Source: a virus. From it: a stretch of 21,142 bases of DNA. The notes under the pieces are model-generated. The model did not search any database, was not told the DNA's origin, and was given only the letters and a program-made list of their open reading frames with translations. Numbering within the stretch: the first letter of the stretch is position 1; each line of letters starts with the position of its first letter. The stretch lies in the IMG/VR virus record IMGVR_UViG_3300042541_000664, positions 1-21,142 of that record, one strand, 5' to 3'. Position numbers and translations under genes: made by a program. Shown here piece by piece: positions 3,221 through 17,085 of this stretch.

Positions 3221-3460
3221 ATGACACGCAATTTTAAGCAAGAGTACAAGACCCAACAAGAACGAGGCGAGCATGAGAACCGAATGGAACGCCAACGTGC
3301 CCGTAGAAAATTGGACGCTAAGGGAGTGACCCGACAAGGTAAAGACGTAGCCCACGTCAAGGCTTTGAGCAAGGGTGGATCCAACGCAGATGGTGTGAGA
3401 CTGGAACCTCCCAGCAAGAACCGCTCGTTTAAACGCAAGTCAGATGGTTCAATGAAATGA
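3221..3460 (+). CDS. Small HNH-nuclease-like protein
   Basis: The 79-residue, very basic protein contains DVAHVKALSKGGSNADG (about 42-58) followed by VRLEPPSKNRSFKR. This pattern (D-x-x-H, a G-G-x-N turn, then N-R after about 15 residues) matches the core of HNH endonucleases and related small phage proteins. The zinc-binding cysteines of longer HNH enzymes are absent. It may be a minimal DNA-nicking or DNA-binding protein. A GTTTAAAC copy lies in the codons for SFKR. The start has a weak SD, and the stop overlaps the primase-helicase start by 4 nt (ATGA), so it is probably coupled to it. Confidence 0.65.
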   Translation: MTRNFKQEYKTQQERGEHENRMERQRARRKLDAKGVTRQGKDVAHVKALSKGGSNADGVRLEPPSKNRSFKRKSDGSMK

Positions 3461-5139
3461 ATCAACGCATCGCTGATTTCGTCAGTGAGTTCCACTTCAA
3501 CGAATCTACTCGGGTAGCTTGCCCGTACTGTTCTGCTGAACGCAGAAAATCAAATCAAAAAGACATGACGCTAACCCGCAAAGCAGACGGGGCGGTCGTG
3601 TTTCATTGCCATCATTGTCAGACTAACGGCTCAGTCCAACCACAACAGGAGAGAATTTTGTCAGCCGTACCCAACCCAACTATTGTTTCAAACAAACTGC
3701 AAGATCAACATTACGCATGGTTAGCCACTCGGGGCATATCACATCAGACCGCAGACAAAATGAAGTTGTTTGCCTCTGAGAAGTACTTTGGCAAACTGGG
3801 CAAGACCGCAGATGCCATCGGCTTCCCCTACTACAGGAATGGTGCATTGGTAGCCGCCAAGTACCGATCATTCCCTGAGAAGGATTTCACGCAAGACTCA
3901 GGCGGTGCGCATGATTTCTTTGGGATTGATTTAATTCAAAAGGATCAGCCACTTATCATCGTTGAGGGCGAGATAGACTGCCTGTCACTCATGGAGATGG
4001 GCTTTGATAACGTCGTAAGTGTTCCATCGGGTGCGCCAATCAAAGTCGCAGATGGAAAGGTTCTGCCCTCTGAAGATAAGAAGTTTGCCTATGTATGGAA
4101 TGCTCGGGAGATACTGGACGCAGTTCCTTACATCATCCTAGCCACTGACCAAGACACTGCGGGTCAAGCGTTAGCCGAAGAGTTGGCAAGACGGATTGGC
4201 AAAGAAAAATGCAGGCTGGCTAAATTTGAAAAGAAAGATTTAAACGAGGTCATGCTTGATGACCCGACAAAGCTAGGGGCGCTACTGGCATCGGCTGTGC
4301 CATACCCCGTCTCGGGGATCTCCGATGCAGGCTCTTATTACGAGCGTTTAAACGAGTTGTATACGAAGGGAACGGGCAAGGGATACTCAACGGGGTACAC
4401 CTCAGTCGATGAAATATACACTGTCGCCCCCGCCCAGTTGACTGTTGTTACGGGTTACCCATCATCGGGCAAGTCCAACTTTGTTGATCAGATTATGGTC
4501 AACCTAGCCGACAAGCACGATTGGAAGTTTGCCGTTTGTTCATTTGAGAATCAGCCTGAGATACATATCAGCCGACTCATGGAAATCTATACCAAGCGTA
4601 GGTTCTTTGATGGCAAGGATCGGATGTCAGAGACCGACAAAGAGATTGCGTTTAAATTCGTTAAAGAGCATTTCCTGTTCATCGATACAAACGGGGAAGA
4701 GCCATCAACACTTGACTCAATATTGGAACGGGCAAGGATTGCCGTTAAGAGGATGGGGGTTCGGGGGTTGGTCATTGACCCGTATAACTACATAGAGTTA
4801 CCGAGGGGTGACGGGACTGAGACAAGTGCCATCAGCGACATGCTGACTAGGGTTCAGAAGTTTTGTAAGGCACATGACGTGCATACATGGTTTGTTGCTC
4901 ACCCATCTAAGATCACCCGACAAGGTACTGAACAGCCCCGCCCTGATGGGATGTCCATCGCAGGGTCGATGGCTTGGTGGGCTAAGACGGATTGCGGTCT
5001 GACTGTCCACAGGAAAGACCATCACGTAGAGATTGCAGTTTGGAAATGTAGGTACAGATGGGTCGGCACTCAGGGTGAGACAACAATGATCTACAACAAG
5101 ACCGCAGGGACTTACTCGGAGAACTTAGATGCCTTCTAA
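3457..5139 (+). CDS. Replicative primase-helicase (zinc ribbon, Toprim, DnaB/RecA-like helicase)
   Basis: 560 residues with the domain order of T7 gp4-type proteins. A zinc ribbon has C22-x2-C25 and C51-x2-C54. A Toprim domain has VEGEID at 169-174 (catalytic Glu) and ATDQDTAG from 229 (the D-x-D metal site). A RecA-like hexameric helicase domain has Walker A GYPSSGKS at 333-340, a Walker B strand ending VIDPYNYIE, then WFVAHPSK and the SIAGSMAWWAKTD segment typical of DnaB-family helicases. It synthesises RNA primers and unwinds DNA at the phage fork. The start lies in an ATGA overlap with the HNH-like gene, and the end overlaps the next gene by 11 nt. One GTTTAAAC copy (4346) falls in the linker between Toprim and helicase. 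Confidence 0.93.
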   Translation: MNQRIADFVSEFHFNESTRVACPYCSAERRKSNQKDMTLTRKADGAVVFHCHHCQTNGSVQPQQERILSAVPNPTIVSNKLQDQHYAWLATRGISHQTADKMKLFASEKYFGKLGKTADAIGFPYYRNGALVAAKYRSFPEKDFTQDSGGAHDFFGIDLIQKDQPLIIVEGEIDCLSLMEMGFDNVVSVPSGAPIKVADGKVLPSEDKKFAYVWNAREILDAVPYIILATDQDTAGQALAEELARRIGKEKCRLAKFEKKDLNEVMLDDPTKLGALLASAVPYPVSGISDAGSYYERLNELYTKGTGKGYSTGYTSVDEIYTVAPAQLTVVTGYPSSGKSNFVDQIMVNLADKHDWKFAVCSFENQPEIHISRLMEIYTKRRFFDGKDRMSETDKEIAFKFVKEHFLFIDTNGEEPSTLDSILERARIAVKRMGVRGLVIDPYNYIELPRGDGTETSAISDMLTRVQKFCKAHDVHTWFVAHPSKITRQGTEQPRPDGMSIAGSMAWWAKTDCGLTVHRKDHHVEIAVWKCRYRWVGTQGETTMIYNKTAGTYSENLDAF

Positions 5140-6047: not shown

Positions 6048-6303
6048 AATCAGTCTCCTTTTCCATGTAACGAACTAATGCCTTGGCATCCTCACTCTGC
6101 ATCTTTTGAATGATCTCATACATCTGCGGGGCAATGGCAATCAGTCGGGCATTCGCCCGTTGGGTAGCCGTAGGAGAGTCTTTGCCGTGGCACTCAGCAA
6201 CTAAGGGGATGCCGTAATCATTCTCATACCCCCACACTGAGGTTGTAGTTTGAATGCCACGTCTGCCAACAGTCCAAGGGTGCGGTGTTATGTGTTTAAA
6301 CAT
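6028..6303 (-). CDS. Conserved small phage protein (HPWTV ... ANARLIAIAPQM family)
   Basis: 91 residues. The opening MFKHITPHPWTV and the later ANARLIAIAPQMYEIIQ (about 50-66) match a widespread phage protein whose members read HTPGPW near the start and ANARLIAAAPELL in the second half. Its function is not known to me. The ATG is the first codon of ATGTTTAAAC, so the start codon abuts a GTTTAAAC palindrome. It overlaps the stop of the 30-residue membrane peptide by one base (TAATG), giving translational coupling. The C terminus is acidic. Confidence 0.8.
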   Translation of the reverse strand: MFKHITPHPWTVGRRGIQTTTSVWGYENDYGIPLVAECHGKDSPTATQRANARLIAIAPQMYEIIQKMQSEDAKALVRYMEKETDYADQGN

Positions 6304-7699: not shown

Positions 7700-7716
7700 A
7701 GGGGGGAAGCCCCCCT
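7700..7716 (-). terminator. GC-rich hairpin right after the VWA gene (weak terminator or processing stem)
   Basis: GGGGGG (7701-7706) and CCCCCC (7710-7715), with A7700-T7716, form a 7-bp stem with a 3-nt loop that begins at the stop codon of the upstream gene. No T run follows on the minus strand, so it is probably a partial terminator or an mRNA-stabilising hairpin. Just downstream, GTGG/CCAC arms form a small operator-like inverted repeat near 7660-7675. Confidence 0.5.
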
Positions 7717-8387
7717 CATACAGCAAGCTTCAGCTTGTCAAACGCTACAGTGCCCATGTCCTCAAGCTTCTCGATGGTTACAGCGTTGTTGTAAATGTGG
7801 GTCACGTCCGAGCGGATGCCAACCCCGATAGTGGTGATGCCAAGGTTCTCACCCGACAGTGCTTGTTCTCTGCAAGCATCAGCATTGCCGATGCCATCGG
7901 TAAGAAAGAAGCAAACCTTGCGCTCCTCCTGACGATTCAACAGCAACCCGTGGGCATATGACAGGGCGGTGAAGTCCTGAGTACCGCCCCCTGACTGAAG
8001 CCTCTCAAGCATCGGTCTGACACGTTGATAGGGCACGTTGAAGTCTTTGAGCAATGAGACCTCGCACCCGAATGTCACGACACTGGTTGCAACCCCTGCC
8101 TTGGACAGGGTGTCCAGTAGGGCATAGGTTGCTAGGATGGCATGGTACATCTTGGAGTCCAAGGGCTTGGCAGGGCGAAACATTGAGCCTGACACGTCAA
8201 GCACAATGGTCACCGCAGAGTCGATGCCGTCATGTTCTTTCCTACGTTTAAACAGGCGGTCATTGTGAGCCATAGTCGGGAGTGCCCGAACATTCAGCAC
8301 CCCTGACTTGCGGTTGTTTTGGAATTCTTCAAAGCCCGAATTCTCAAACAGCTTTCTGACTGTATAGCGTAACTTGGCGGGAATCAT
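7716..8387 (-). CDS. VWA-domain protein, partner of the MoxR-type ATPase
   Basis: 223 residues with a single von Willebrand factor A domain. The metal-ion-dependent adhesion site is complete: D64-x-S66-x-S68 in LDVSGSM, T136 in GGGTQDF and D164 in FLTDG. The N terminus (about 55 residues) is basic. VWA proteins beside MoxR/CobS-type AAA+ ATPases (NorQ-NorD, CbbQ-CbbO, RavA-ViaA, CobS-CobT) act as the substrate-binding arm of a remodelling complex. Here the usual CobT-like arrangement is split, with the N-terminal part encoded by the gene just upstream. A very strong SD (AAGGAGG) precedes the ATG. A GTTTAAAC copy lies in codons near LFKRR. Confidence 0.88.
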   Translation of the reverse strand: MIPAKLRYTVRKLFENSGFEEFQNNRKSGVLNVRALPTMAHNDRLFKRRKEHDGIDSAVTIVLDVSGSMFRPAKPLDSKMYHAILATYALLDTLSKAGVATSVVTFGCEVSLLKDFNVPYQRVRPMLERLQSGGGTQDFTALSYAHGLLLNRQEERKVCFFLTDGIGNADACREQALSGENLGITTIGVGIRSDVTHIYNNAVTIEKLEDMGTVAFDKLKLAV

Positions 8388-8396
8388 AAGACCTCC

Positions 8397-9401
8397 TTAA
8401 AAGTCGATTGGGAAAGTACGGGGGTTGTCAGCCCTTGTGTGATACCCAGTGCGCATCACGTCATCGGTGCTGTAAGAGCCTCCTGATCCTGCACCCTCGG
8501 GAGGGTTGGCGGTAGGCTCAACCTCACGGGCTTTGACTGTCTCGCCATCCTTTGTAGGAGGCTTCGCAGGGTCAGGCTTGGGGGTAGGTGCATCACCGCC
8601 CTGATCGCCTCCTGTAGGCTGTTCTGAGTCCCCTCCTGAGCCATTCTCATCATCACCCTCACCGCCATCTTGATCACCGCCCTGATCACCCTCATCATCA
8701 CCCTCATCATCGGAGGGAGGGGTTGGGTTGGTTGGCGGTTGGATTGGCTCATCCTCGGGCTTGGTGTTCACATTGTTAAGCTGATCAAACACCCACTTGG
8801 CAACCTCCAAGGTATCCCAAGAATTACCGCAAGTGTTTAAACGTTTGACAGCCTCGGCAAAGATCGGCTCAAGCCCAAGGGCGAGAGGCACTTTGATCTT
8901 TGCGTGTTTACGTCCGTAGACAGCGAGAACAAAGGGGTACTGGACAGGGTCTGACCAGTCGATTGCCTCACCTCTGCGATTCTTGTAAGCCAAGCCCTCG
9001 GCAACCATGCCGTTGATCAGGGCACTGAGCAACTCCTCGATGTTGCCTGTCAGCCCTGCCTTGATGCCCTTGCCCTCGATCCACGCATCCTCTAAGGCAT
9101 TGTGCAACTGGGCAATGTACTGCCCGTGCGCATAGGCTGAGTGGACAGCATCAAAGTCGGTATACATCCAGTGCAACAACTCATGCACTGCCATGCCGAC
9201 ATAGCGCATCAGGTCACCCTGAGTCAGCACTGCATCATCCTTAACGTTGGCAAGTATGACACTGCCACTCTTGTTGATACAGGCGGTTTGTGTACCCGCA
9301 TCCCAACGAACCTCGACAGGACGCAAGCCAAGGTCAGAGCAGATTTTGTGAATGCCGATCACTACGGCACGTTTAAACTGATAGCCATGATAAGTTTTCA
9401 T
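8397..9401 (-). CDS. CobT-like / putative metallopeptidase protein with acidic linker
   Basis: 334 residues in three parts. Residues 1-215 are a folded domain with H73-E-L-L-H77 (HExxH zinc motif) and, 24 residues on, NALEDAWIE (101-109), the N-x-x-E-D-x-x-x-E stretch shared by phage CobT-like proteins. Residues about 223-300 are low-complexity, rich in Asp, Glu, Gly, Pro and Gln. A short C-terminal tail follows. In longer relatives a VWA domain follows the acidic linker; here it is a separate downstream gene starting 10 nt after this one ends. Together with the ATPase upstream this forms a three-gene MoxR/CobS-CobT-like module. Whether the zinc site cuts peptides is unknown. SD GAGG lies 5 nt before the ATG. 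Confidence 0.82.
   Translation of the reverse strand: MKTYHGYQFKRAVVIGIHKICSDLGLRPVEVRWDAGTQTACINKSGSVILANVKDDAVLTQGDLMRYVGMAVHELLHWMYTDFDAVHSAYAHGQYIAQLHNALEDAWIEGKGIKAGLTGNIEELLSALINGMVAEGLAYKNRRGEAIDWSDPVQYPFVLAVYGRKHAKIKVPLALGLEPIFAEAVKRLNTCGNSWDTLEVAKWVFDQLNNVNTKPEDEPIQPPTNPTPPSDDEGDDEGDQGGDQDGGEGDDENGSGGDSEQPTGGDQGGDAPTPKPDPAKPPTKDGETVKAREVEPTANPPEGAGSGGSYSTDDVMRTGYHTRADNPRTFPIDF
8570..8735. repeat. Degenerate tandem repeats coding the acidic linker
   Basis: Short units such as TGATCACC and CATCATCACC recur many times on the plus strand, encoding the D/E/G-rich linker of the 8397 gene in the opposite direction. This type of repeat changes length easily by slippage, so the linker length should vary between related phages. 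Confidence 0.6.
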
Positions 9402-9408
9402 GTTGACC

Positions 9409-10833
9409 TCACAGATATTTTGCTAGAACGCTAGCGTTGATGTAAGCCGACTTGATTGCATCAAGTGCGACACGGCTCTCCTCGGGTTGACGGGAGGTAA
9501 TGGTTGATTCCCATGCCTCATCAACTGAGAGAATGTCCAATGCCCGAATGAAAGCGAGGGCAGAGCGGATAGAGGGGGCGTCGATCACGTCCCCTGTAAT
9601 GACCTTGGCACGGCAAGCACTGATGGCATTGACTACGTGTTCAGCCAACATTTTGTGGCAACCAGTGTGCAAGGTCAGAGCAATAACCTCTTGCTCTTTA
9701 CTCAGGTACTTGAACTCAATCACACGGGCAAAGCGGTCAACCAGTGCGGAATTCATGTTCTGAGTCTTGGCATAGCGTCCTGATGTATCACCATTGGTCA
9801 GGGTGTTATCAGCCGAAAAGACCAAGACACCCTCTGCCCTGCGGTGAACAAAGCCCCCGTAGTTGACTGCACTGTTCGGCTCAAGAAAGCCGTTCAGAGT
9901 AGCCAACTCACCCGCATCTGCCATGCTGATTTCATCGAGCAAAACCACTGTAGACGGGGAAGTGAAAGCCTCCAAGAAAGCACCTTTCTTGAACACTGTC
10001 GCACCATTCTCAAGACCGACAGCACCCGCATAATCATCGGCTGTCGTGTACTTGTGAAAGTTGATACGGGTGTAAGAACGTCCAGTGCGACTAGCAAACT
10101 GTCTTGCAGTCTCTGACTTACCAGTGCCCTTAGCACCGCCAAACCACAGGTTCTCGCCTGTCTTTTGTGAGAGGAGCAAGTGCTTCAGAATGTCCTCTTG
10201 CCACACAAAGTTGGGATCAACATCGGGGCTGTCAGGGGCATCCCAAATGTCAACCATGACAGGGTCACCCTTGGGGTTGCGAACGTCAACACCGAACACA
10301 TCGAGCGCAGATTTGCGATCAATGATCGTTGCCTTGGTAGCGTTAGCCACGACAGCCTCTGCCTTGGCATCTTTGACAGCTTGCGCAAAGGGTTTAAACG
10401 CCTTGGCAATGGCACTGGCAACCTCTGCATTGATCTTGTCCTCATCGAGGTTGGATTGTGATGCAGTAGCAATCTTTTGAACCTGAGCCACAACGTCATT
10501 GACCTTGCTCATAAGGTCACTTGCGCTATCAATGGCAAGCTTGGATTTTCCGAGGGCATCGAGGGCAACCGCCTCGGCACGTACAGCAACTGAGGCTGTA
10601 GCATCAAGCTTGGCGGTGTCTACACTGCTCACATTGTCAGCGACAGGTGAGCAATTCTTGATGTAGTCAAAGTCAGTCAAGCCCTGCTCGATCAGGTCAC
10701 CGAGCCAGTTTAAACGCACCATTTTGTCTTTGTCCTGACGGATATGGTCAGGGGCTTTGAGGGCTGAAACAGCCCCGTTGATAACGAACTTGTCGAGGGT
10801 TGACAAGGTTTTAATTGTGTTCATGGAAGCCAT
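9409..10833 (-). CDS. MoxR-family AAA+ ATPase, CobS-like
   Basis: 474 residues. Residues 1-165 are an extended helical region rich in Ala, Lys and Asp (probable coiled coil). The ATPase core follows: Walker A G-G-A-K-G-T-G-K-S at 232-240, Walker B TVVLLDE at 295-301 (D300, E301), sensor-1 N343 in FSADNTL, and an arginine-finger segment ALVDRFAR at 363-370. The sequence around the core has the character of CobS/MoxR (AAA_5-type) ATPases. Such ATPases form rings and drive a VWA partner; the partner is encoded downstream. A true cobalt chelatase role is unlikely here because no other cobalamin gene is present. SD AGGAGAG lies just before ATG 10833. Confidence 0.9.
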   Translation of the reverse strand: MASMNTIKTLSTLDKFVINGAVSALKAPDHIRQDKDKMVRLNWLGDLIEQGLTDFDYIKNCSPVADNVSSVDTAKLDATASVAVRAEAVALDALGKSKLAIDSASDLMSKVNDVVAQVQKIATASQSNLDEDKINAEVASAIAKAFKPFAQAVKDAKAEAVVANATKATIIDRKSALDVFGVDVRNPKGDPVMVDIWDAPDSPDVDPNFVWQEDILKHLLLSQKTGENLWFGGAKGTGKSETARQFASRTGRSYTRINFHKYTTADDYAGAVGLENGATVFKKGAFLEAFTSPSTVVLLDEISMADAGELATLNGFLEPNSAVNYGGFVHRRAEGVLVFSADNTLTNGDTSGRYAKTQNMNSALVDRFARVIEFKYLSKEQEVIALTLHTGCHKMLAEHVVNAISACRAKVITGDVIDAPSIRSALAFIRALDILSVDEAWESTITSRQPEESRVALDAIKSAYINASVLAKYL

Positions 10834-13111: not shown

Positions 13112-13178
13112 GTTGTGTCCTCTGTAGCCGTGCAACATTGCACTGGTCAACCCCGTAGGGCTGACCGCTGAAATGTCA
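13112..13178 (-). ncRNA. Leader B: two-hairpin 5' leader of the 12854 gene
   Basis: A 22-nt hairpin at 13145-13166 (stem GGTCAGCCC/GGGTTGACC with a cUACGg tetraloop and one G-U) is followed by GTGCA/TGCAC (13130-13143, 4-nt loop), then 18 nt with AGAGGA and the ATG. Compared with leader A the fourth pair of the first hairpin is C-G instead of G-C and the loop-closing pair is C-G instead of U-G, a compensating change. It begins at the upstream stop as TGACATTTCAGCG. Confidence 0.72.
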
Positions 13179-13490
13179 GTCTGCTCTCGATCCCATGTAA
13201 GCAGGAATGCCGTTGCTTCTGAGTACTTGAGCAAACGCTCTAGCACCCGCTTCTTTCACGTCCATTGACTGAGTGAAGTTGGCACTGGGATTCCAAATCT
13301 GCCAACCTTTTTGCCAGTGCTTTTTGCCAACGTTGTTTTTTCTAGCCCAGTTAACGAAAGGGTCTCTGCCGTTGGAAATGTCAACCCAAGCAAAACCGCA
13401 ATACATCGGCTCGCCATACTGGGCAATGAAGTCTGCTTCTGCTTGCTGTCCCGCCTGTACAGCTTGCTCATAAATTGCTTTGTAGTCCAT
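13176..13490 (-). CDS. Hypothetical protein, first gene of the minus operon
   Basis: 104 residues, starting MDYKAIYEQAVQAG at 13490 with AGGA 7 nt before. The N-terminal helix is Ala/Gln/Glu-rich (QQAEADFIAQYG), followed by MYCGFAWVDISNGRDPFVNW and a basic section (ARKNNVGKKHWQKG) and NPSANFTQSMDVKEAG. Such proteins with CGFAWV near residue 30 occur as small conserved phage proteins of unknown role. It is promoter-proximal, with a structured leader of about 230 nt (13491-13723). Confidence 0.72.
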   Translation of the reverse strand: MDYKAIYEQAVQAGQQAEADFIAQYGEPMYCGFAWVDISNGRDPFVNWARKNNVGKKHWQKGWQIWNPSANFTQSMDVKEAGARAFAQVLRSNGIPAYMGSRAD

Positions 13491-13757: not shown

Positions 13758-14063
13758 TACACCTAATATTTATCCGAGTAAACTGTAGGGTTATTAGATT
13801 GTGGGTTGGCGGTGGGTTTAGGACATTCTTTATTAGTAGGAACACGTTTTCAGTGTTGAACTACAAAGTATTCATTTCACTATAAAAGTAACACTCGGGT
13901 CAAAAGTATTAAAAAACGCTCAGAACGGCTCAGGATCGACGATCAGGGAGGAGGTAAGGGGGTAGGTGCTTGGAGGTCTAAAACGGCTCAAAATCGATTC
14001 TGATGCGTTCTAGAGCCATGTATCTTTATACAGTTCGCGCTTACATTTGAGTATTACGTTAGA

Positions 14064-14094
14064 ACCAAGGTACTCAGTTCTTGGTGTTGTTTTT
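14064..14094 (+). terminator. Possible intrinsic terminator upstream of the origin
   Basis: ACCAAG (14064-14069) and CTTGGT (14080-14085) form a 6-bp stem, followed by GTTGTTTTTA. If a plus-strand transcript starts near 13893, it would end here after about 200 nt, just before the DnaA boxes. Such a transcript could be a primer or regulatory RNA. Confidence 0.4.
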
Positions 14095-14100
14095 ATGCAC

Positions 14101-14223
14101 TGTATAAGAAATGTATAACATATGTATAAGCTGTGGATAACTCGGGTGGTGTGGATAAGCTGTGGATAACATCCTGTGGATAACCTTTGACTTACGCACA
14201 GGGTGTGGATAAACTGTGCATAA
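14101..14223. other. Putative replication origin: five perfect DnaA boxes
   Basis: TGTGGATAA, the complement of the consensus DnaA box TTATCCACA, occurs at 14132-14140, 14150-14158, 14161-14169, 14175-14183 and 14204-14212, all in one orientation. A one-mismatch copy TGTGCATAA is at 14215-14223, and three TGTATAA sequences lie at the left (14101-14130). The adjoining sequence is AT-rich (possible unwinding element). The cluster sits at the point where minus and plus operons diverge. I infer an origin that recruits host DnaA; no phage initiator is visible in the window. Confidence 0.75.
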
Positions 14224-14296
14224 TACGAACAGTGTGTTTCCCTGCGTTGGTGCGTGGGAAATGTGTGGTACTTATATATAGATGGAGCGTTTAAAC

Positions 14297-14965
14297 ATGA
14301 GCAAGACAAGTCAGGCTGAGTACAGGGCGGAGTTGGATCAGGCAATGGCGGAGGAGGAGAACTGGGGCGAGGATGTAGACCTAGAAGACCTTAGCGAAGC
14401 GGAACAGTTAGCCCATCTCGCAGAGAAACCTATAAGGAGAAAGGATGGTGAACATAGAGGGTCAGATATAAGAAGACCTAAGCCTCTAAGCCCACGGCAA
14501 GCATTGTTCTGTCAGAGGGTAATACTAGGAGATAGCCTTAGATCAGCATACCGATCAGCCTATGCTAACGATACAGGATCAGATGCAAGTATCAGCGCAT
14601 CAGCTAACAAGCTGATGAAAGATCCAAGGATCAAACACATACTAGAGGAAGCTTGGGAAGAGACAGCGGAACACCTGAGTGAGGATCTGTCAGCGTCTAA
14701 AAGATATGTGTTGAAGGGACTGCTTGCACTAAGCAAGAAAGCCAAGCAAGAGGGTACTAAACTAAAAGCACTGGAACTGATGGGCAAAGCTTGTGGGCTG
14801 TTCACCCCGACAGACGTACAAGACAAGGCAGTGATCACCGCAGATCAATTGAAGCGGGAACTGTCAGGGCACATGAAGTTACTAGAGCAAGCCAAGGCAT
14901 CAGTCCTAGACGTAGACGCAAAGCGTTTAAACGAGAGGATACCAGTAGCGCAGGAGGGCGTGTAA
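14297..14965 (+). CDS. terS: Terminase small subunit
   Basis: 222 residues from MSKTSQAEY at 14297. GGAG at 14284-14287 is 9 nt upstream, and a GTTTAAAC fills the space between SD and ATG; a start at 14282 has no SD. Residues about 65-120 (PLSPRQALFCQRVILG, SLRSAYRSAYAN, ASISASANKLMKDPRIKHI) are the DNA-binding helix-turn-helix domain of Terminase_2-type small subunits, with the usual P-R-Q-x-x-F start. The C-terminal half is helical and mediates oligomer formation. It recognises phage DNA (pac/cos) and hands it to the large subunit. Another GTTTAAAC (14925) lies near the end. The gap before the large subunit is unusually long (about 390 nt before the LexA-like gene). Confidence 0.88.
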   Translation: MSKTSQAEYRAELDQAMAEEENWGEDVDLEDLSEAEQLAHLAEKPIRRKDGEHRGSDIRRPKPLSPRQALFCQRVILGDSLRSAYRSAYANDTGSDASISASANKLMKDPRIKHILEEAWEETAEHLSEDLSASKRYVLKGLLALSKKAKQEGTKLKALELMGKACGLFTPTDVQDKAVITADQLKRELSGHMKLLEQAKASVLDVDAKRLNERIPVAQEGV

Positions 14966-15316: not shown

Positions 15317-15358
15317 AACCGGAGCAGTTAGTCGCCGCACTGGGCAGTGTGCCCTCAT

Positions 15359-15589
15359 ATGAGCAAACGCAGACAGTTAGTTCTAGACTTCATCCGTGCA
15401 TACATTCGGTTGCATGGTGTGTCTCCGTCTTATGAAGTTATAGCTCGGGGTATTGGATTGAAATCTAAGTCAAACATCCACAGGATCGTCCATCGCTTAA
15501 GAGCGGATGGACACATTGTGACCAAGCCTTATAAGTTCCATGCTATTAAGCTTGTAGATGCAAGCGTACGTGATGTGGTACGTCTATGA
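15359..15589 (+). CDS. LexA-type winged-helix DNA-binding protein, no protease domain
   Basis: 76 residues from the ATG at 15359 (a GTG at 15347 is the alternative). SKRRQLVLDFIRAYIRLHG, then VSPSYEVIARGIGLKSKSNIH and RIVHRLRADGHI, fit the N-terminal DNA-binding domain of LexA step by step (R-Q-x-x-L-D-F-I, G-x-S-P-S, G-L-K-S-x-S, L-x-x-x-G-H-I). The S24 autoprotease half is missing, so it cannot be cleaved by RecA stimulation. It may regulate late genes or bind host LexA sites. It lies between the terminase genes and overlaps terL by ATGA, an unusual place for a regulator. No SD is evident. Confidence 0.82.
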   Translation: MSKRRQLVLDFIRAYIRLHGVSPSYEVIARGIGLKSKSNIHRIVHRLRADGHIVTKPYKFHAIKLVDASVRDVVRL

Positions 15590-17085
15590 GTCTACTGACC
15601 CACGCAGAGATTAAGAATTATCTGGAGATGGCTCCCAAGGCTTCTCCAGAGAACCGTGCAAAGATTCAGGCTTTGCTGGAGATGGATAAGATAGAACGCA
15701 GCAAGGAGTCCTTTCTGTACTTCGTGACGCAGATGTGGCCTATCTTCATTTCGGGTTCCCATCACAAGATCATGTCTGATGCTTTTGAGCGGGTAGCTAA
15801 CGGGGAGCTTAAGAGATTGATCATCAACATGCCTCCCCGGCATACCAAGTCTGAGTTTGCTTCCTTCCTGTTGCCTGCGTGGTTTCTGGGGAAGTTTCCT
15901 CAGAAGAAGATTATCCAGACTGCCCATACAGCAGAGCTTGCCACAGGATTTGGAAGGAAGGTTAGGAACCTTGTCTCATCAGAACATTATCAGAAGGTGT
16001 TTTCTACAAAGCTATCGAGCGATTCAAAGGCCGCAGGTCGCTGGAATACTAATGTGGGTGGCGATTACTTTGCTATCGGTGTTGGCGGCGCTGTTACAGG
16101 TAAGGGCGCAGATCTCTTAATCATTGATGACCCCCATTCTGAGCAGGAAGCTAAACAAGCTAACCCTGCCGTGTTTGATGGGGTCTATGAATGGTTCACT
16201 TCCGGCCCTCGTCAGCGTTTACAGCCCGGCGGAGCCATCATTATTGTGATGACTCGGTGGTCTAAGCGAGATTTAACCGGTCAGATCCTTAAAAACTCCG
16301 ACAAAGATGGCGTAGATCAGTGGGAAGTCATCGATTTCCCGGCGATTATGCCCAACGGGAACCCTTTGTGGCCCGGATTCTGGTCTAAAACCGCTTTAGA
16401 AGCCCTAAAAGCCGAGCTTCCAGTCTCTAAATGGGAGGCTCAATACCAACAGAATCCCACATCCGAGGAAGGCGCAATCATTAAGCGTGAACATTGGATG
16501 ATTTGGGAAGAAAAACGACCCCCAGAATGCGAATACATCATCCAATCTTGGGATACTGCGTTTGAAAAGAATAACCGCGCAGATTATTCTGCGTGTACGA
16601 CGTGGGGTGTCTTCCAGCATCCCAACAAGAATGGTGATTTGAAGGCAAACATCATCCTCTTGGACGCATTCAAGGAACGCATGGAGTTCCCTGATCTAAA
16701 ACGCAAGGCTTTAGAGATTTACAGGGAATATGAACCCGACACTTTAATCGTTGAGAAGCGGGCAGCAGGCGCTCCGTTAATCTACGAGATGAGAAAGATG
16801 GGAATTCCGGTCGCGGAGTATACGCCGGGCAAAGGAAACGATAAGATATCGCGTGTAAACGCTATCTCTGCTTTGTTTGAATCTGGCATGGTGTGGTGTC
16901 CTGATACCCGATGGGCTGAAGAAGTGATGGATGAGTTAGCTTCTTTCCCTAATGGAGACCACGACGACCTTGTTGACTCAAGCAGTCAGGCTCTGATGCG
17001 GTTTCGCTTGGGAGGCTTTATCACCATCGATTCTGATGAAGAAGATGAGCCTTTTTACACCCGTAGAAAAGTAGAGTACTACTAA
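15586..17085 (+). CDS. terL: Terminase large subunit
   Basis: 499 residues, the normal size for a phage packaging motor. The N-terminal ATPase has a Walker-A-like NMPPRHTKSE (81-90, K88) and Walker B DLLIIDDP (D181, D182), with a coupling segment MTRWSKRDL (222-230). The C-terminal RNase H-like nuclease has D323 in QSWDTA, E390 in VEKRAAG and D460/D461/D464 in HDDLVDS, the three acidic metal-binding positions. It pumps DNA into the prohead and cuts the concatemer. It starts in an ATGA overlap with the LexA-type gene and is followed 8 nt later by the portal. Confidence 0.95.
   Translation: MSLLTHAEIKNYLEMAPKASPENRAKIQALLEMDKIERSKESFLYFVTQMWPIFISGSHHKIMSDAFERVANGELKRLIINMPPRHTKSEFASFLLPAWFLGKFPQKKIIQTAHTAELATGFGRKVRNLVSSEHYQKVFSTKLSSDSKAAGRWNTNVGGDYFAIGVGGAVTGKGADLLIIDDPHSEQEAKQANPAVFDGVYEWFTSGPRQRLQPGGAIIIVMTRWSKRDLTGQILKNSDKDGVDQWEVIDFPAIMPNGNPLWPGFWSKTALEALKAELPVSKWEAQYQQNPTSEEGAIIKREHWMIWEEKRPPECEYIIQSWDTAFEKNNRADYSACTTWGVFQHPNKNGDLKANIILLDAFKERMEFPDLKRKALEIYREYEPDTLIVEKRAAGAPLIYEMRKMGIPVAEYTPGKGNDKISRVNAISALFESGMVWCPDTRWAEEVMDELASFPNGDHDDLVDSSSQALMRFRLGGFITIDSDEEDEPFYTRRKVEYY

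Follow-up and report, generated by a model that had tools for sequence, protein, structure and literature searches.

What does a dense cluster of host-type DnaA boxes do in a tailed phage that encodes its own primase-helicase? The window analysed here is the whole of a linear virus record of 21,142 b (positions 1-21,142). PHROG and Pfam annotation identified genes for an exonuclease, RusA, a primase-helicase, MoxR/CobT-like proteins, the terminases and a portal, and from this gene content the minus-strand and plus-strand sets are presumed to be early and late, respectively. About 790 b of intergenic DNA separate the start of the last minus-strand ORF from that of terS, and the boxes lie within this divergent junction, where the sequence-only reading of the locus had placed them. 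A MoxR-type AAA ATPase with CobT/VWA-like partners is encoded on the minus strand at 7716-10833, and the small LexA-domain protein between terS and terL is, at 80 aa, too short for a peptidase domain. An Rfam search gave 0 matches, a tRNA scan of 12 sources found none, and no relative of TerL was found in genome contigs when the host was sought by homology. The features of the junction and the genes around it are collected in the table.

Table. Features of the divergent junction and its gene context, in window coordinates. Those marked "added" were overlooked by the sequence-only reading.
Feature	Position	Strand	Basis or remark
Bifunctional primase-helicase (Toprim + DnaB_C)	3457-5139	+	phrog_239; PF13155, PF03796
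Minus-strand ORF, last before junction	13176-13490	-	starts at 13490; no Pfam match
Direct repeat AACGGCTCAGGATCGA	13924-13939	+	second copy 13982-13997, 88%
Palindromic block with counterparts in noncoding DNA of certain phages, T5-like ones included	13977-14034		palindrome 13977-14014, 82% complementary; added
LexA/SOS-box-like site ATGTATCTTTATACAG, candidate	14018-14033		matches CTGTN8ACAG at 7 of 8 fixed positions
Least stable 50-bp step window of whole contig, candidate DUE	14090-14140		nearest-neighbour energy
TGTATAA repeat 1	14101-14107	+	sequence match
TGTATAA repeat 2	14112-14118	+	sequence match
TGTATAA repeat 3	14123-14129	+	sequence match
DnaA box 1, exact	14132-14140	+	sequence match
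DnaA box 2, exact	14150-14158	+	sequence match
DnaA box 3, exact	14161-14169	+	sequence match
DnaA box 4, exact	14175-14183	+	sequence match
Degenerate reverse box TTACGCACA	14192-14200	-	TTATGCACA or TTGTCCACA in relatives; added
DnaA box 5, exact	14204-14212	+	sequence match
DnaA box 6, one mismatch, TGTGCATAA	14215-14223	+	identical variant in most type A relatives
-10-like CATAAT, then conserved GAACAGT	14219-14233	+	added
Inverted repeat, possible hairpin at 5' end of terS transcript	14237-14260		7 pairs; just after -10-like element
terS, terminase small subunit	14282-14965	+	phrog_51, E 7e-12
Small protein, LexA-type DNA-binding domain	15347-15589	+	PF01726, E 1e-9
terL, terminase large subunit	15586-17085	+	phrog_38, E 2e-107

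The 9-mer TGTGGATAA, which we take to be exactly the R1-type DnaA box of E. coli, occurs five times within 81 b, always on the plus strand, and a search of both strands of the window found no further exact copy. Five exact boxes were reached in 0 of 100 dinucleotide shuffles, in which the maximum seen was three. The elements reported earlier from the letters alone, five identical boxes in one orientation together with a one-mismatch copy and TGTATAA repeats, were thus all confirmed. The TGTATAA units number three and stand immediately left of the boxes with a period of exactly 11 b. A terminator-like hairpin at 14064-14085 was discarded as a feature; judged by eye, it is absent from the alignment of type A relatives, defined as those with a window-like layout. 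Upstream of the palindromic block, a G-rich tract seen by eye at 13940-13970 of the window and in many relatives (e.g. L062) may form a G-quadruplex.

Relatives were collected as viral contigs matching TerL or the primase-helicase, and distant relatives are under-sampled because the best 80 of each scan were taken. This yielded 107 loci with terS, from which 14 with a short upstream region (among them L008, with a truncated terS) and 16 with identical upstream DNA were left out, giving 77 distinct relatives whose terS starts were extrapolated from tblastn. Exact boxes in the 450 b preceding terS number at least one in 75 of the 77, at least two in 66 and at least three in 54; the exceptions are one locus without any box (L077) and one with relaxed matches only (L346). 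Box counts were 276 in 34,650 b upstream of terS compared with 13 in 1,016,855 b elsewhere, an enrichment of about 623-fold, and a reversed-letter control gave 0 in both compartments. Across relatives, 245 boxes point the same way and 31 the opposite way. The exact boxes form 40 distinct layouts, loci with fewer than two boxes being counted as one class, which indicates that the array persists while single boxes come and go. This wide variation in layout points to selection acting on the boxes themselves.

The pattern of substitution was examined in 17 type A loci. Variation per column pair, uncorrected for kinship, was 0.019 at the six box sites and 0.152 in spacers, an 8-fold difference (p 0.0003), with 0.074 in the TGTATAA units and 0.306 in the surrounding DNA. 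Within TTATCCACA, positions 3 and 5 carry most of the mismatches (45 each); position 2 has one and position 8 has none. DnaA tolerates variation at the positions where these mismatches cluster, and the distribution fits the DnaA consensus. The array is therefore real, selected, beyond chance and not private to this contig. Its signal weakens with distance: some distant clade members keep one or two boxes, and a same-strand pair within 100 b is present in 10 of 17 long records and missing from 7. Whole-record searches of four named relatives (TerL 50-58%) found exact boxes in none, so that the comparison with related phages, proposed earlier as a check, favours the boxes in the 77-locus set and goes against them in these four. 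No description of such an array in this clade appeared among the papers listed in searches of an open-access library.

In type A loci the boxes are accompanied by unstable DNA. The least stable 50 bp of the contig directly adjoin the first box, on the same side as the DUE of E. coli oriC. Across the clade, the weaker 45 b lie on this oriC-like side in 49 of 62 loci with at least two forward boxes. In layouts other than type A, the weakest DNA often lies at least 200 b from the boxes, and the adjacent AT-rich element is weaker or absent. The idea that unstable DNA generally lies on the oriC-like side in other phages was rejected: 99 unrelated three-box phage loci show no preference (51 of 99 on the oriC side), and the counts at three window sizes were 51/99, 46/97 and 38/93. 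Cumulative GC skew, also proposed as a check, gave a divided answer. The detrended minimum lies near the boxes in one of four long records (G001, minimum 8721, boxes 9078) and elsewhere in three (G002, G003 and G004, minima 1512, 35892 and 38059, boxes 44843, 47144 and 42280, respectively), in records that may be incomplete. GC skew mostly tracks gene strand, and it was set aside as proof of an origin.

Replication genes were searched in seven clade records. PolA was found in none of the seven, nor in any of 19 long clade records in a wider search; these records may be fragments, and some but not all of the 19 were seen to carry the array. PolB, Pol III alpha and DnaA genes were each found in 0 of the 7. 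A primase-helicase with a DnaB_C domain is present in 5 of the 7, and a T7-like replisome, with a family A polymerase of its own beside the primase-helicase, was therefore not seen. The clade may possess a divergent polymerase; in G002, several large proteins matched no family. PolA was found in all four named relatives, which are of the HTVC023P type, and in 6 of 12 sister-group records. A strict rule that boxes occur only where PolA has been lost did not survive: the sister-clade record G024 carries both a five-box array and PolA, thus array and PolA are not mutually exclusive.

As the relatives keep the boxes and no polymerase gene was found, the virus probably borrows the start machinery of its host. 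Our leading, still tentative, explanation from these comparisons is that 14090-14223 most likely serves as a replication origin opened by host DnaA. Host DnaA would bind the head-to-tail boxes, and a DnaA filament would spread leftward and melt the TGTATAA segment at 14090-14131, which is rich in AT. Either the phage's primase-helicase or DnaB of the host would then load onto the exposed strand, and the host replicative polymerase, proposed as the copier because the clade shows no polymerase gene, would copy the phage DNA. A promoter-like element of terS overlaps box 6, hinting that this DnaA complex might in addition restrain transcription of the packaging genes. If the origin reading is true, replication in a large clade of tailed phages from the environment is started by host DnaA, through a hybrid replisome start that combines host DnaA with the phage's own primase-helicase and no polymerase of its own, and phage growth would be tied to the host cell cycle. 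The earlier suggestion of an origin dependent on host DnaA is in this way upheld in part. Conservation, variation at tolerated positions, the unstable flank and the lack of a detectable polymerase speak for it; it is weakened by the skew minima lying elsewhere in three of four records, by the four named relatives without exact boxes and by a block, described below, that is common to T5-like noncoding DNA, T5-like phages being ones whose DnaA boxes are discussed in connection with DNA transfer, a non-replicative role.

Known systems resemble the window in part. Bacterial oriC likewise has several strong DnaA boxes of one orientation next to AT-rich DNA containing three short repeats, and in PMC4980987 E. 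coli oriC is described with R boxes and three 13-mers. Unlike oriC, the window belongs to a phage with its own primase-helicase, its TGTATAA repeats have an 11-b period in place of 13-mers, and GC skew lends it no clear support. A copy of a host or plasmid origin was rejected, as genome contigs gave 0 matches to the exact spacing of three boxes and the region was unmatched in plasmids. DnaA sites also occur at the phage-borne origins oriR and oriL of phage P1 (PMC4980987, PMC9948254), and mutating DnaA sites had no significant effect on a P1 repL reporter (PMC9948254). P1 uses phage initiators, whereas no initiator gene was identified in the window. Cyanopodoviruses of the MPP-C group, like the window clade, keep a primase-helicase without a polymerase, and recruitment of the host polymerase has been proposed for them (PMC9860041); as a difference, the text of that paper makes no mention of DnaA. 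The HTVC023P-type podoviruses (pelagiphages) are similar in TerL (50-58%), portal (43-45%), a GroES gene and gene order. They differ in having PolA in 4 of 4, as part of the core genome according to PMC9599517, and an exact R1 box in 0 of 4 whole records.

The earlier idea that dense arrays are less usual in phages found no support: at least 120 viral-contig stretches contain three-box arrays compared with 10 for a reversed-letter control, and only about 5 of the 118 three-box loci examined are close kin of this clade. A DnaA gene above the cut-off was found in 0 of 37 three-box records searched, so these records are not simply host origins.

The main alternative to an origin is a transcription control junction that would have no part in starting replication. 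There, host DnaA, alone or with the help of a LexA-like repressor, would repress or time the terS/terL operon and might do likewise for the divergent minus-strand operon; we regard this alternative as possible but on balance unlikely. It draws on the terS side of the array, where in 60 of 77 relatives the -10-like element with GAACAGT adjoins the last box and GAACAGT lies nearly always 51-60 b before terS. The inverted repeat that follows covaries: in 26 sequences, 90.1% of cells are paired and the covariation score was reached by 0 of 500 shuffles, while two measures that count pair types were unexceptional. CTGTN8ACAG is the LexA/SOS-box consensus, and a near match lies at 14018. T5-like relatives of the left-hand block likewise stand at divergent promoters. 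Joint repression by DnaA and LexA is described for E. coli uvrB in PMC6015884. Against this explanation, no canonical -35 conserved upstream of the -10-like element was found in relatives, and the distance from the last box to that element ranges from overlap to more than 40 b, so there is no fixed promoter geometry. In our judgement five or six strong boxes also exceed what a promoter switch needs, and the unstable segment is left unexplained.

The palindromic block to the left of the array is 79-87% identical over about 54-61 b to sequence in Kamaji, phiR2-01, Slocum, River4 and FBKp34, the matches to T5-like phages as a whole covering about 41-61 b, with E values of 1e-9 to 4e-3 for the matches to Demerecviridae noncoding DNA above chance level. 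A search with the copy from Kamaji matched 88 phage records at E 1e-3. The block, 55-60 b of palindromic noncoding DNA, is also seen in Stephanstirmvirinae-type Klebsiella myophages and a Vibrio phage. Its exact 14-mer AATCGATTCTAGAG lies near terS in 25 of the 77 relatives, with no copy in the 983,460 b outside, and the window's own block carries a variant of it. In T5-like phages, which judged by TerL matches are otherwise unrelated to the window phage, the block stands at the divergent pre-early junction, with R1 boxes about 0.1-0.8 kb away in most cases. T5 itself has R1 boxes in this junction, at 6121 and 6194, and a further one at 9510, within the injection stop signal annotated at 9140-10149, and perfect SOS-box-like CTGTN8ACAG sites at 6213 and 9411 beside the DnaA boxes of both regions. 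T5 carries its own replisome, and DnaA boxes at a phage junction therefore need not mean an origin. This shared block makes an old question testable, namely the role of DnaA boxes at phage junctions.

The window could combine these elements in a portable host-state module, a scenario we consider distinctly unlikely. The palindromic block and LexA-like box, exchanged between unrelated phage families, would be joined to an oriC-like array at which host DnaA opens the duplex and passes it on to the phage primase-helicase and host polymerase, and the host initiator would time both replication and the early/late switch. Also distinctly unlikely is a DNA-transfer element of the T5 type, in which repeats, palindromes and DnaA boxes would hold the entering DNA at the border of early and late genes, a role proposed for the injection stop signal of T5. 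The window has all these marks together, which PMC13250531 gives as those of the T5 injection stop signal, at a divergent junction and beside a LexA-box-like site, and 13977-14034 is the stretch that resembles Demerecviridae noncoding DNA. However, T5-like elements have 1-3 exact boxes scattered far apart and perfect SOS-type boxes, whereas in the window five boxes are packed tightly and the SOS-like site matches at 7/8 positions. The myophage FBKp34 has the block without R1 boxes in the stretch covered, so block and boxes are separable, and no A1 or A2 homologue is among the genes annotated in general family searches. The readings as origin, transcription junction and T5-type transfer element need not exclude each other.

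It is very improbable that TerS or some other phage protein binds the repeats to mark where packaging begins and that their match to the DnaA box is incidental. Packaging sites often lie directly upstream of terS, as the array does in this clade, but the core 9-mer does not change even where TerS identity has dropped to about 40-50%, is an exact DnaA R1 box, and forms arrays enriched in many unrelated phages. The least probable explanation is a role as a decoy, like datA, in which the array would titrate host DnaA and block initiation of the host chromosome. Many strong boxes on an element that replicates would bind a large amount of DnaA, but for a decoy neither the constant position next to terS nor the unstable repeats alongside would be necessary.

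Other repeats were noted outside the clade. The GC-rich cousins Pag-Yong1, MinM2 and Pra-JY27 share their gene order with the window, as seen in Pag-Yong1, in which no R1 or TTTTCCACA box was found in 50,000 b. In this phage without DnaA boxes, repeated TGTCATACA units lie downstream of the equivalent junction, at 41220-41560. In the sister-clade loci L256 (7890-7990) and L294 (6007-6080), dense TTATCCACAGG arrays adjoin very AT-rich DNA.
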